From NCBI GenBank assembly GCA_018829445.1, contig JAHJTV010000060.1:1-64000 (forward strand): a stretch of DNA of 64,000 nt, in the 5' to 3' direction. The notes below the pieces were generated by a model. That model had not been told where the DNA came from. It worked only from the letters and a program-made list of their open reading frames with translations, and searched no databases. The position numbers and the translations under genes were made by a program. The DNA is from a bacterium (GTDB lineage Bacteria > SAR324 > XYD2-FULL-50-16). Shown here piece after piece: positions 42,837-50,124 of this stretch. Position 1 is the stretch's first letter; each line of letters begins with the position of its first letter.

Positions 42837-44762
42837 CTACTCATAAAGTTGCAACACCGACAGTTTCTCAAGTCTTTTTCTTTTTAGCCTATCAATTCTG
42901 GGTTTCAAAATCGCCTTATCCAAATCCTTAAATGACAAACCCTGTTGATCATGAAGGTCGTTGGCAATGAACTCAAGAAACCTGTCTTCTGAAACAGTCT
43001 GCAATCCATTAATATCATTATAATTCGTTACTTCCCCGTCAATGATTTTATAGTTAGCAAACGTCAACGTATACCAAAAAGCTGCCTGGGACTGACTCAA
43101 CCTGATATCAATGCCTCCCTTATCTTTAAACTCCTTGAGAGTTTTATTCGTTCTTTTCCATACTTCGGCACCGGGAAATTTTGATCGCCTTTCTCTGATA
43201 TAATAAACTTTATTAGTCAGATTATCCTCCAAGAATTCAACTCCCCTTCTGAGTTTGGCATCGACAGCTCGATGGTGTTGCGCGTCATCAATTATAAACG
43301 CAATCTTTGTTTCTCCTTTTTCCTCAATGTCTATCACGCATTCACAATCGATATATTCCTTTTCACTCTTGGCTACTTTGACCGAGGCTACTTTAAAACC
43401 TGATTTTTGAGGAATACTGTTCAAATAGATGCCTAGCGTGCGTCTTAATCTCATTCGATCCGGAGCGATCTCTTTTAGATTTTTTTTAAGATTTGCATAT
43501 TCTCTTTTTAACAGGTTCATCAAAACAGAGTTTACTGATTCGAATTGATCTCCGATCGGATTATCCAAAATCTCGTTTAATACCCGGTTGGCTTCAAATA
43601 TAATTTCCCTTGGACTTAAGATCTCGGATTGAAAAACCTGGGTAAGCTTTTGTTTATCAATAGGATAAAAATCGTCTCCAATGTCTTCACCAAATATAAA
43701 ACTCAACCTGGCTTTGACTATATTCAGTGCATCGCTGGAATCACATCCTGTTAATACTGCGGTATTTGAGTGAAGTCTGGAAACAACATGCTGGTTCAGT
43801 TCATGACTGAAACGCTCCTCCCACAGTTGCCCTCTAAAAAAGGCGATGGGAAGCATGGCATATGTGTGATCCACAAGAAACTCCAGCATTTTACCAAATG
43901 AGTGCACATGATCCAGTGTATTAAGATTTTCCATTCGATCAAAACAGACAACCAGTAATCGGCCATATTTTCCCAAAATCATTCCAATCGAATTTAAAAT
44001 ATCCCGAGCTTCTTGTTCCAGAGCGCGTTCAGACATATCTATTCGCTTTGCCACTCCCAGTTCTTCACAATCCCTTTCATCCAAAACAACGCTTTTCAGC
44101 CAGCTGATCGAATGTGATCTATGATGAATACACCGGTACTTAAGGAACACATTCACAAAGTTCCTATCTATTCCCGAAAAGGTATTCATCAGATAGTTTC
44201 TTGCTATCTGCTCAAACTTGGGGTTTTCAAGCACAGATTTAAGAATTTTTGAGCTGAGATAGCTCAATGGGTTTTGTCGCAGTTTCTGGATAAGTCCTTT
44301 CTGCTCCTGTCTGGTAATGGACGTAATTTTTATCTTTTTTCCCAGCAGATCCAACAGGAAAAGCCCAAATAGACTATCCAACTGAGAGGCAATTTTATCC
44401 TCTTTTATGGGACGGCATAAACTGACTGCAATTTCCCTCAACAGATATCTGAATGTCTGGTGCGGATCTTCGATGGGTTGTATATATGAGAACAGAAAAA
44501 GAGAATTATCTTTTATCTTACGTTGCAGGAGGCGTGAAATGAGATGGGTTTTTCCGGCTCCCGCTTCTCCGAGTATCAAACAGGATATTCCGTCTTGGAC
44601 ATTATTCAACTTTTGATCAATAAGTCGGCTTATTAGCGAGTATGCCTTATCATTGATGGATTGGATATCTGGAAATCGGTTGACCCATGGATCTCCTGTG
44701 CTTGCGGAAACAAACGGATTATTTGTTTTCAGAATCTCAATTTTGGTGCTTGCTTCAATCAT
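42837..44762 (-). CDS. P-loop ATPase of unknown function, partner of a winged-helix protein
   Basis: This 641-residue protein has a STAND/AAA-like N-terminal half with Walker A GEAGAGKT (65-72) and a Walker-B-like strand LLVVCFDRMEN (Asp275 followed by Arg rather than Glu). A long helical middle follows. The C-terminal region from about 470 has the strands CECVIDIEEKGETKIAFIIDD, then YYIRERRSKFPGAEVW, and may form another alpha/beta domain. A nuclease fold there is only a guess. It starts with an 8-base overlap with the upstream triple-winged-helix gene, so the pair form one operon. Similar ATPase plus winged-helix pairs occur in conflict and DNA-processing loci, but I recognise no named system. 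Confidence 0.7.
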   Translation of the reverse strand: MIEASTKIEILKTNNPFVSASTGDPWVNRFPDIQSINDKAYSLISRLIDQKLNNVQDGISCLILGEAGAGKTHLISRLLQRKIKDNSLFLFSYIQPIEDPHQTFRYLLREIAVSLCRPIKEDKIASQLDSLFGLFLLDLLGKKIKITSITRQEQKGLIQKLRQNPLSYLSSKILKSVLENPKFEQIARNYLMNTFSGIDRNFVNVFLKYRCIHHRSHSISWLKSVVLDERDCEELGVAKRIDMSERALEQEARDILNSIGMILGKYGRLLVVCFDRMENLNTLDHVHSFGKMLEFLVDHTYAMLPIAFFRGQLWEERFSHELNQHVVSRLHSNTAVLTGCDSSDALNIVKARLSFIFGEDIGDDFYPIDKQKLTQVFQSEILSPREIIFEANRVLNEILDNPIGDQFESVNSVLMNLLKREYANLKKNLKEIAPDRMRLRRTLGIYLNSIPQKSGFKVASVKVAKSEKEYIDCECVIDIEEKGETKIAFIIDDAQHHRAVDAKLRRGVEFLEDNLTNKVYYIRERRSKFPGAEVWKRTNKTLKEFKDKGGIDIRLSQSQAAFWYTLTFANYKIIDGEVTNYNDINGLQTVSEDRFLEFIANDLHDQQGLSFKDLDKAILKPRIDRLKRKRLEKLSVLQLYE

Positions 44763-45471
44763 CGGTTATCCAAGTAGCTGTGAGCCTCAAGCGCCCGGTA
44801 TTATCAATATAGGATTGTTCAATTTCTGATTTTGAGAAAGTCGATGGATCACCCCCCTGCAGTTGTATCACCAATTCGGACTTTAACCATTCCAAAACCC
44901 TGACGAACCTTTCATTCGACCAATTTAATTCTTCACGAATCAGATGAATCCTGACAAACCTTCTTCCCTTGCTCACTTTATCATAGGCGTTTTTAAACAG
45001 TTTCTTCTCCTGAACGTCATCCTGTCTAACACTCTCTGCGGAACCGCCATCAGACGAAATTATGAATCCTTTCAATAGATGGGTTTTTTCATTAATGACC
45101 CCTTTCAGTTCACCGTTTTTAAACAGATCATTTAAGATCTCAACGAAGGTGCGATTATTTATCGGCAGTAACGATCTTAATCGCTTTGATGAAAGGTTGG
45201 GGTTTTCCCTGATTTTGTTTAAAACAATATCTTTCAACAGGAGATTAAAAGCAACATAACTTGATCTTCCATTCCTAAGGATAGTCAAATTTTCACCAAG
45301 GTGGAGCAACAGACGATTGATCACCTCTTTTACCGAGGACTTTCCTTTTTTTAAACCGAGGGATCTGACAGCTTCTACAGGAAGACCGTCTCTTACCTGG
45401 TTTACTGTCAAATAATCCTTTTTCCGTTGTCTTAACAACTGCTCCACCAACTTGTTTATTTGTTCATCCAT
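44755..45471 (-). CDS. Protein with three winged-helix-like segments, partner of the ATPase
   Basis: This 238-residue protein has what look like three helix-turn-helix/winged-helix units. The first is about 1-75 (YLTVNQVRDGLPVEAVRSLGL … NGRSSYVAFN). The second is about 78-140 (NLSSKRLRSLLPINNRTFVEILNDL). The third is about 160-238 (RIHLIREELNWSNERFVRVLEWL … GRLRLTATW). This suggests DNA binding or protein scaffolding. Its stop region overlaps the ATPase start by 8 bases. No named family is recognised. Confidence 0.65.
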   Translation of the reverse strand: MDEQINKLVEQLLRQRKKDYLTVNQVRDGLPVEAVRSLGLKKGKSSVKEVINRLLLHLGENLTILRNGRSSYVAFNLLLKDIVLNKIRENPNLSSKRLRSLLPINNRTFVEILNDLFKNGELKGVINEKTHLLKGFIISSDGGSAESVRQDDVQEKKLFKNAYDKVSKGRRFVRIHLIREELNWSNERFVRVLEWLKSELVIQLQGGDPSTFSKSEIEQSYIDNTGRLRLTATWITDD

Positions 45472-47741: not shown

Positions 47742-48476
47742 ATGAAACCATTGTTGACGATCTTAATGTTAGTCTTTCTGTTTGTACCTCTCGCAAATGC
47801 AGGTAATGGATCATTTCTCATCATAAAGTCGACCTACCTCTATCCTGAAAAAAACCAGGAAGGGAAAAAATTTCTGACCCGGATTCATGAAGCCTATGAG
47901 GTAATTAACATCTATAAACCGCAGCAGAAATCATTGATGTTTGAAATTGAGTTTCCCAAGGATGATAATACCATTATTGGAACCGGTTTTGTCGTTGAAA
48001 CAGAATCGGAATTAAAAGAACTCGGAAATAAAAAAGTAAGAGTCTATCAGGAGTTACCGCAACAAAATACCAATTTAACCACCTATCATCTTGTTCCTTC
48101 CAACCAGTTATCTTTCACGGGAAAACAGCTGGAGTCTCCGGATTTTCAGAATCTAACCTGGAAAGCGGTTAATTTCAAAACCAATGCCCCCTTAAGAGTG
48201 TGGGTGCCTGAATGGGCTGGAATCTATCGTCCGGACAAGGATGCAGAATGGCTGACGATGACTTACAAATCGGTGATCAAGAAGAACCTCGATAAGGATC
48301 TGTTAAACAAAATCTTAATGGGACAGGTTGAAATCGGTTTTACGAAAGAACAGGTTAAAATGGCACTGGGTGATCCATTAAAAATGCAACTGATTGAAGA
48401 TAACACCAAATTGGAATGGATCTATACAAACAGGAAAGTTATTTTTGTGAAAGACGTGGTTTCCAGGGTTTTATAG
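47742..48476 (+). CDS. Exported protein with a BamE/SmpA-like C-terminal domain
   Basis: This 244-residue protein has a signal peptide (LTILMLVFLFVPLANAG). The middle is unassigned. The last 60 residues (MGQVEIGFTKEQVKMALGDPLKMQ … LEWIYTNRKVIFVKDVV) have the SmpA/OmlA fold pattern, found in periplasmic or outer-membrane-associated proteins. No lipobox is visible, so it is probably soluble in the periplasm. It starts seven bases after rsmD. Confidence 0.65.
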   Translation: MKPLLTILMLVFLFVPLANAGNGSFLIIKSTYLYPEKNQEGKKFLTRIHEAYEVINIYKPQQKSLMFEIEFPKDDNTIIGTGFVVETESELKELGNKKVRVYQELPQQNTNLTTYHLVPSNQLSFTGKQLESPDFQNLTWKAVNFKTNAPLRVWVPEWAGIYRPDKDAEWLTMTYKSVIKKNLDKDLLNKILMGQVEIGFTKEQVKMALGDPLKMQLIEDNTKLEWIYTNRKVIFVKDVVSRVL

Positions 48477-48489
48477 AAAGATTCCATAT

Positions 48490-50124
48490 CTATTTTGAAG
48501 ATTTTGCACATCTGAATCCAACATCCTCCCAACCATAGACAGGATTACTGCTATCTCTGAACCAGCCCACGGTATAAGACGATGGTTTTGCCCATGATCC
48601 ACCCCTGATTACTTTTTCCTGTCCAATTTTTGAAGACTGATACGGACTGCCAGGATACGGCCTTAAGTAGCTATCCACCCACTCTCTAACATTGCCCGCC
48701 ATATGTTTTACTCCATAGGGAGAGTAATCTTTGGTTTGTGAATCAGCTATTTCCGGTCCCAATGTGCCTGATTCCAAGGTGCGGGCATAACCATCATAAA
48801 ACTTTTCTCCTCTCCACGGATATGTCCGCCCATTGCTGCCTCTGAAAGCCTTTTCCCATTCAACTTCTTTCGGCAATCGTTTATTCTGTACTGAACAATA
48901 CCGATATGCATCTTTCCAGTTGACCATCACCACAGGATCTTTCTCCTTGCCAACAGGAGGAACTCCTCCAGGCCATGATTGTGGCGGCCTATGTTTGAAT
49001 TTTTTTACAAAAAGATAATACTCCGTATTGGACACTTCTGTTCGATCTATATAAAAAGATTGTAGCGGTACTTTGAACATGGGAAAAGATATCTCCCCGC
49101 CTTTGTCTGATCCCATGATAAATTCTCCACCGGGAACAAACATCATTTTGTTTTCCGATTTAGACGATTTTCCTGAAGATATATTTTGGGGTTGCTCGCT
49201 GGAAGCCCCGCTGAATCTGATTGTTTTAGCCCACTCAATGACGCCATTATAGATATTCAGCATCTTCAATGATGCTATATATTGATTTCCGCGTCTGGTT
49301 ACTCGGCCATAGATGAATGCATCCACGCCGTATAGCTCCCCCATCTTTTTTGCTTTTTGCTCGTCTATGAAGTCTTCCATATTGAGCTTTTGCTCCTCCA
49401 AGATCAATTGCAGGTTCTCCCTGTCAACAACCTGAAAGTTCCCATCTTTTGTTATGGCAACCGAAAGATAATCAATTACCTTGTTGGAGTCAAAATCACT
49501 GCTGATGTTCCAAAAGCTGATCTGGTTTATCCTGCTGGCTTTTAGCCTTTCCAGATCATCTTTGATGGATAGACTGGTTTTCACTGCCAGGTTTTTAATG
49601 GTGACGGTATCGACTGTCAGGTTCTCCAATTGAAATATATCGGCCCAGACAATCGCAGAACTCTCAACATCAATTGCCTTAAGAACAATTGTATCTTCAT
49701 AGTAACTGCCATATACAAACAGATCTACACCAAGCAGTTTTCCCAATTCCTTATAAGTATCAGATGATACCATCCCCGATAAATTGAACCGTTGCTCCCG
49801 CAGGATTAATTGTAATTTTGATCTGTCAATAACACGAAACCTTCTCTTTTGAACCAGTTCGTTCTCTGTAAAATCGATCAATTCATTGGTAACTGATTTT
49901 TCTAAATTCCCTTGGATACGGGAAAAAGCCACTGTTCCGTATTTCCTTCCCGGAACTTCGCTAATGGATTCGGCTATCTGTTGAGCCAACTGAAGCGTAT
50001 CAAAACACAGTGCTGTCTCAAACGTTAAAACCGTGATAACTATTATTAACAAGACAATCCTGCAAATGAAAAACCCCCGTCTTTTTTTATTGTTGGTTTT
50101 TTGTATATAATCTTTTGAAATCAT
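48490..50124 (-). CDS. Fusion of two CsgG-like domains with a SUMF1/FGE-like domain
   Basis: This 544-residue protein has an N-terminal membrane anchor or signal (VLLIIVITVLTFETALC). Two tandem CsgG/FlgO-like domains follow (about 55-185 and 195-305), each with RxRVIDRxxLQLILREQ-like and GVDxFxYG segments. The C-terminal SUMF1-type domain (about 328-544) has MMFVPGGEFIMGSD, EVSNTEYY, RLPKEVEWEKAFRG, MAGNVREWV and DVGFRCA. The cysteine pair used by true formylglycine-generating enzymes is absent near the end, so it is unlikely to activate the sulfatase. A surface or secretion role is more likely. It is convergent with the BamE-like gene. Confidence 0.82.
   Translation of the reverse strand: MISKDYIQKTNNKKRRGFFICRIVLLIIVITVLTFETALCFDTLQLAQQIAESISEVPGRKYGTVAFSRIQGNLEKSVTNELIDFTENELVQKRRFRVIDRSKLQLILREQRFNLSGMVSSDTYKELGKLLGVDLFVYGSYYEDTIVLKAIDVESSAIVWADIFQLENLTVDTVTIKNLAVKTSLSIKDDLERLKASRINQISFWNISSDFDSNKVIDYLSVAITKDGNFQVVDRENLQLILEEQKLNMEDFIDEQKAKKMGELYGVDAFIYGRVTRRGNQYIASLKMLNIYNGVIEWAKTIRFSGASSEQPQNISSGKSSKSENKMMFVPGGEFIMGSDKGGEISFPMFKVPLQSFYIDRTEVSNTEYYLFVKKFKHRPPQSWPGGVPPVGKEKDPVVMVNWKDAYRYCSVQNKRLPKEVEWEKAFRGSNGRTYPWRGEKFYDGYARTLESGTLGPEIADSQTKDYSPYGVKHMAGNVREWVDSYLRPYPGSPYQSSKIGQEKVIRGGSWAKPSSYTVGWFRDSSNPVYGWEDVGFRCAKSSK

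Follow-up and report, generated by a model that had tools for sequence, protein, structure and literature searches.

A 544-residue protein encoded on the reverse strand at positions 48490-50124 of the window (the whole 64,000-nucleotide stretch of SAR324 DNA that was analysed) combines a likely export signal, two CsgG/LpoB-type domains and a SUMF1-type domain without the FGE cysteine pair. With a probability of about one half, it is read here as a soluble periplasmic adaptor of the SAR324 cell envelope, in which the twin domains would dock to envelope proteins and the SUMF1 domain would bind a partner. No name or described function for this SAR324 gene was found in the literature searched, and the arrangement of known domains is new as far as searched; the combinations CsgG with SUMF1, CsgG with FGE-sulfatase and SAR324 with CsgG returned no paper from literature in which subscription papers were mostly not covered. 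The features of the gene are as follows.

48490..50124, reverse strand: whole gene, 544 aa, with a likely export signal, two CsgG/LpoB-type domains and a SUMF1-type domain (ORF, Pfam, AlphaFold2)
50005..50124, reverse strand: residues 1-40, basic N-terminus and hydrophobic stretch, a probable Sec signal peptide (sequence, lipobox pattern scan)
49630..49944, reverse strand: residues ~61-165, first CsgG/LpoB-type domain, best fold match GNA1162, Z 10.8 (Pfam, model, self-alignment)
49210..49530, reverse strand: residues ~199-305, second CsgG/LpoB-type domain, best fold match LpoB, Z 13.7 (Pfam, model, self-alignment)
49156..49209, reverse strand: residues ~306-323, poorly conserved linker (orthologue alignment)
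48502..49155, reverse strand: residues ~324-541, SUMF1/FGE-fold domain with K513 and T518 at the FGE cysteine positions and C410 and C539 invariant (Pfam, phmmer, model, alignment)

The reading frame was open from its ATG. In Pfam, FGE-sulfatase was matched at residues 324-541 (E 1.9e-41), and CsgG (E 5.2e-23, best at residues 213-276) and LpoB (E 1.2e-15) were each matched in two stretches; the first CsgG-type half could be aligned with the second (28% identity, E 7e-17). The domain boundaries were thus supported by profile search. The sequence-only reading had described two CsgG-like domains fused to a SUMF1/FGE-like domain without FGE cysteines, and this layout was borne out by Pfam, the internal repeat and the structural model, and the lack of the cysteines by sequence alignment; complete CsgG domains were not, since the CsgG profile was covered only at positions 36-99 and 30-97 of 210. 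Because the profile match is partial, the 'CsgG domains' are treated here as CsgG-superfamily (LpoB/TolB-N-like) modules and not as complete CsgG channels. A CsgG secretion pore, one of the functions that had been considered for such domains, was rejected because of this partial match, which leaves out the hairpin part of CsgG, and because the secondary structure of the AlphaFold2 model contains no extra CsgG hairpins; the lipobox pattern was also found in none of 28 orthologues.

The 28 orthologues comprised 27 from the ORF script (the gene of the window included) and one, from genome G011, added from its match in locus L059; the alignment does not include the copies of G017, G045 and G046, all three truncated at contig ends. 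A hydrophobic N-terminal stretch was present in 27 of the 28, the exception being G011, whose sequence was taken from the start of the match only. As judged from sequence, the protein is probably exported, with a signal of the Sec type.

When the protein was aligned by phmmer with FGE of bacteria and of human, K513 and T518 stood opposite both cysteines of the GGSY-x-C-xxxx-C stretch, which we take to be the active pair of FGE; PDB titles naming C336S and C341S agree with this assignment. No orthologue had a cysteine at either position (0/28), and FGE was on this account rejected as an identity, although its fold was matched (Pfam as above; Z 17.2). After residue 45, exactly two cysteines were present in all 28 orthologues, C410 and C539, from which we infer a single C410-C539 disulfide. 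E451, D466, R480 and W532 were invariant in the 28 orthologues and were found in 5, 1, 1 and 0, respectively, of 15 other SUMF1 domains, a comparison set taken from earlier matches and not a random sample.

Two AlphaFold2 models were available, both of modest mean confidence. The first (5 sequences; mean pLDDT 65, pTM 0.51) contained two N-terminal alpha/beta domains alike in strand and helix order and of good local confidence, and the second, of the SUMF1 part (15 sequences; mean pLDDT 69, pTM 0.73), contained stretches below 50. For the SUMF1 part, the highest fold matches were largely tied (EgtB, Z 18.1; SUMF2, 17.6; CalU17, 17.6; FGE, as above; ToxD, 17.0; PorK, 16.7) and were followed by PvdO (16.3), Tvp1 (15.7), SenA (13.0) and Mtd (10.3). 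The best single-stretch alignment to a PDB sequence was to ToxD (67.3 bits), with W384 and the LESG/VEAG stretch that holds E451 in common, while whole-sequence E-values for FGE and ToxD were tied. Two further identities were rejected by NCBIfam cut-offs, namely an EgtB-type sulfoxide synthase (79.7 bits against 360, with no DinB match at E <= 1) and GldK/PorK (56.6 bits against 350, TIGR03525).

These matches bear on the main rival, a periplasmic enzyme in which the SUMF1-fold domain would catalyse a non-FGE reaction and the CsgG-type domains would only place it at the envelope. The matches to EgtB, CalU17, PvdO and SenA, the alignment to ToxD, a toxoflavin biosynthesis protein, and the subfamily-specific invariant polar residues E451, D466 and R480 speak for catalysis, but the FGE cysteines and a DinB-type partner domain such as that of EgtB are absent, and no recurrent biosynthetic partner was recognised among neighbours most of which have no assigned identity (hldE- and ubiD-like genes occur in one family); on balance, an enzyme is considered unlikely. 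The same part of the model touches on a receptor, exposed at the cell surface or secreted, that would display the SUMF1 domain to outside ligands, as some surface or phage receptor proteins have C-type-lectin-like folds too (Tvp1 and Mtd among the matches). This was judged very unlikely, given that a surface anchor was not noticed by eye and that the SUMF1 domain is well conserved and not hypervariable (mean column majority 0.61 over the 28 orthologues).

Of the N-terminal domains, the second was closest to LpoB (127 aligned residues, rmsd 2.9) and also matched TolB (Z 8.3), and the first was closest to GNA1162 (103 aligned residues, rmsd 2.8). PelC (Z 7.8, first domain) and FlgT (Z 7.5) were matched in a Z range where a match may reflect merely a common arrangement, and the LPHT ring (Z 7.6) was also among the fold matches. 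The binding site of LpoB on PBP1B is the UB2H domain (PMC7267771). A role like that of LpoB, as activator of a peptidoglycan synthase, would be in keeping with the fold match of the second domain and with the Pfam LpoB match, and genomes G037 and G038 hold both the studied gene and a clear UB2H match. Against it, the protein scored 57.1 bits where the equivalog cut-off of LpoB is 110.55 (NCBIfam TIGR02722), it has no lipobox, and the genome of the window (G000, 93% complete) gave no UB2H match. Across the 52 SAR324 genomes, UB2H was matched at E <= 0.001 in 15, with 8 above the cut-off, but strong full-length matches (E <= 6.7e-20) were confined to three, G037, G038 and G039, the last of which has no studied gene. 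Weak matches also arose in a control search (6 of 14 genomes, some of them Gram-positive); those in long frames, most of them above 1,000 aa, are presumably transcription-repair coupling factors. LpoB itself is thus an unlikely identity, and an activator of that kind seems quite improbable.

A flagellar or chemotaxis-linked periplasmic protein resembling FlgT would share the probable export and solubility of the studied protein as well as the matches to FlgT and the LPHT ring; FlhA was found in 51 of the 52 genomes, and response-regulator-type genes (cluster 13, a nature we assume from sequence, one member being CheB-like) lay within the examined flanks of six loci. FlhA was, however, also present throughout genus g19, whose 17 genomes lack the studied gene, and the FlgT-type Z scores are low, so that this reading is given very little credence.

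Returning to the soluble periplasmic adaptor, we favour it because LpoB/TolB-N-type domains bind envelope proteins, the genome of the window has no UB2H match, FlhA does not track the gene, and the SUMF1 domain carries invariant residues specific to its subfamily. The earlier suggestion of an envelope scaffold joined to a non-FGE binding module is compatible with the likely export signal, the absent FGE cysteines and the adaptor-type folds, as far as sequence and models indicate.

SAR324 was treated as a phylum in the genome set (52 genomes), whereas NCBI places it under Deltaproteobacteria. Homologues with the same gene architecture were matched in 31 of the 52, three of them (G017, G045 and G046) as contig-cut pieces only. 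By family, the counts were 10/10 in f1, 0/1 in f2, 10/10 in f3 (G017 cut) and 11/31 in f4, where the copy of G046 is in two pieces and that of G045 is only a piece of the first domain at the edge of a contig. In f1, the matches extended over most of the gene length in 10/10 genomes and, together with the occurrence in 31 of 52 genomes of the phylum, this argues that the arrangement is not a product of chance. The gene was absent from G039, G044 and G049 and from every one of the 17 genomes of g19, several of these genomes being incomplete.

In a maximum-likelihood tree, f1, f3 and f4 each fell on one side of a branch (support 90/74, 93/93 and 98/100, respectively), with only the f4 branch reaching the tool's starred level; G171, a genome from another phylum, formed a long branch and G011 had an unusual composition. 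The grouping by family fits vertical descent with loss, and the sequences are consistent with a gene that is old within SAR324.

Beyond the phylum, 331 of the 383 genomes searched lie outside SAR324. With a profile of the CsgG-type pair (E <= 1e-12, best six candidates per genome), 12 of the 331 matched, 11 of them only in part and mostly over about one domain. The remaining one, G171, matched over both domains (2-261) up to a contig end, and it was the only one of the 14 genomes of its phylum to match; locus L149:1-909 (reverse strand) holds a tandem CsgG-type pair outside SAR324 that is cut at the contig end. A full-length profile gave mainly SUMF1-only matches outside the phylum (best three candidates per genome). 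Among plasmids, 228 records matched, none over more than 80% of the query; the 25 matches listed covered the SUMF1 part, some extending into the second CsgG-type domain, and the CsgG-type pair alone was matched in one record. On a large plasmid, a Pseudoalteromonas CsgG/HfaB protein (L105:2818-3903) is encoded in a row with a gene for a lytic transglycosylase. Separately, a g19 genome without the studied gene encodes a 477-aa SUMF1 protein with an N-terminal part that Pfam does not match (L155:3238-4668).

The combination had been called odd, and this holds for the twin layout, which was unnamed in the literature searched, but less so for the pairing itself, since a protein with a single CsgG/LpoB-type domain and a SUMF1 domain exists in a SAR324 genome (L162:2826-4310), above Pfam's curated cut-offs for both domains (CsgG 25.9 bits against 20.8). 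Weaker cases are L161:3729-5378, also in SAR324, with CsgG just under the cut-off (20.7 bits against 20.8), and L152:3426-4667, outside SAR324, with TolB_N and DUF3280 matches under the cut-off beside SUMF1. Alignment to the pair profile with hhalign gave probabilities of 91% for L162, 40% for L152 and 22% for L161. No relation of the L151 N-terminus to the CsgG-type pair was seen, and L156, which resembles L152 on inspection, was matched by neither CsgG nor TolB_N. Because such single-domain proteins exist, the pairing of CsgG-type and SUMF1 domains probably arose more than once.

Neighbours of the studied gene differed among families. In f1 it was divergent from a gene, which we take to be rsmI-like, in 10/10 genomes, with a ubiD-like gene and another that we would name hldE-like also nearby; in f3 it adjoined a presumed SMC-like gene in seven loci. 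In f4, a gene for a protein of ~190 aa lay downstream on the same strand, 9-225 bases away, in eight loci; it was side by side with the studied gene in G046, and on another contig, cut, in G048.

L093:10560-11144 and equivalents in f4: gene for a ~190-aa putative outer-membrane barrel, downstream of the studied gene

By profile search, this gene was found in 10 of the 11 f4 genomes with the studied gene and in none of the 20 without it (Fisher p 2.5e-7, ignoring relatedness); the eleventh is G045, where a contig end truncates the studied gene. Because 17 of the 20 gene-less f4 genomes belong to one genus, the co-occurrence amounts to few independent events. On inspection, the C-terminus of the protein resembled an outer-membrane barrel signal; two examined members had no Pfam match, and no K or R occurred in the first 15 residues of six out of six examined, which is odd for a signal peptide. 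The protein is a putative small outer-membrane barrel. Its gene was absent from f1 and f3 in the profile search, one weak hit in G003 (E 0.001) apart, so any partnership with the studied protein would be specific to f4.

Convergent on the studied gene in the window (47742-48476, forward strand) is a gene whose product is probably exported and weakly resembles BamE at its C-terminus, with a score below the Pfam cut-off. It lay near the studied gene in nine of the ten f1 genomes, directly convergent in seven, and was found in 20 of the 52 SAR324 genomes, in f1, f2 and f3 but in none of the 31 of f4; because of this absence, and because it is present in G051 without the studied gene, it is not an obligate partner. 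Further along the window (42837-45471, reverse strand), a gene for a 641-aa AAA-type ATPase overlaps a 238-aa gene; PADLOC matched the ATPase weakly to Avs2 (E 4.2e-5), and the two genes are possibly a STAND-like pair.

As an adaptor, the protein would be exported by Sec, lose its signal peptide and form its one disulfide. Among characterised relatives, LpoB acts with PBP1B and TolB with Pal, and PelC and FlgT are found in rings; by analogy, the twin LpoB/TolB-N-type domains may, within the periplasm, bind one another or other envelope proteins. The SUMF1 domain would perform no FGE chemistry and would hold one specific partner protein or glycan by means of E451, D466, R480 and W532, here assumed to lie in the cleft. 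In f4, that partner could be the putative barrel encoded directly downstream. A more detailed version, offered as speculation, is a SAR324-specific adaptor whose twin modules carry the SUMF1 domain as a non-FGE docking head in an undescribed periplasmic complex; it might do part of the Lpo/Tol role in SAR324, with the barrel as a dedicated partner in one family and with loss in one genus. The conserved and apparently old protein offers a testable case of an envelope protein that reuses the SUMF1 fold with no FGE chemistry, and of LpoB/TolB-N modules whose genome gave no match to a UB2H partner.

Compared with known systems, the N-terminal domains are like LpoB, the TolB N-terminal domain, GNA1162, PelC and FlgT in fold, core sequence and envelope location, but the studied protein carries tandem copies followed by a SUMF1 domain, with no lipobox and no UB2H match in its genome. 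The CsgG/HfaB curli channel shares with it a Pfam CsgG match, which in the studied protein spans part of the profile only (30-99 of 210) and is not accompanied by a lipobox. FGE/SUMF1 and SUMF2 have the same fold as its C-terminal domain, in which the FGE cysteine pair is lacking. PorK/GldK, of the type IX secretion ring, likewise places a SUMF1 fold in an envelope ring, but the studied protein falls under the GldK cut-off; ToxD (PDB 7spq) shares W384 and the E451 stretch, but it is a biosynthesis protein and the match is only to its SUMF1-type part. The single CsgG-type proteins with SUMF1 (L162, L161 and L152) show the same pairing of domain types, with one CsgG-type domain and other sequence where the studied protein has two.
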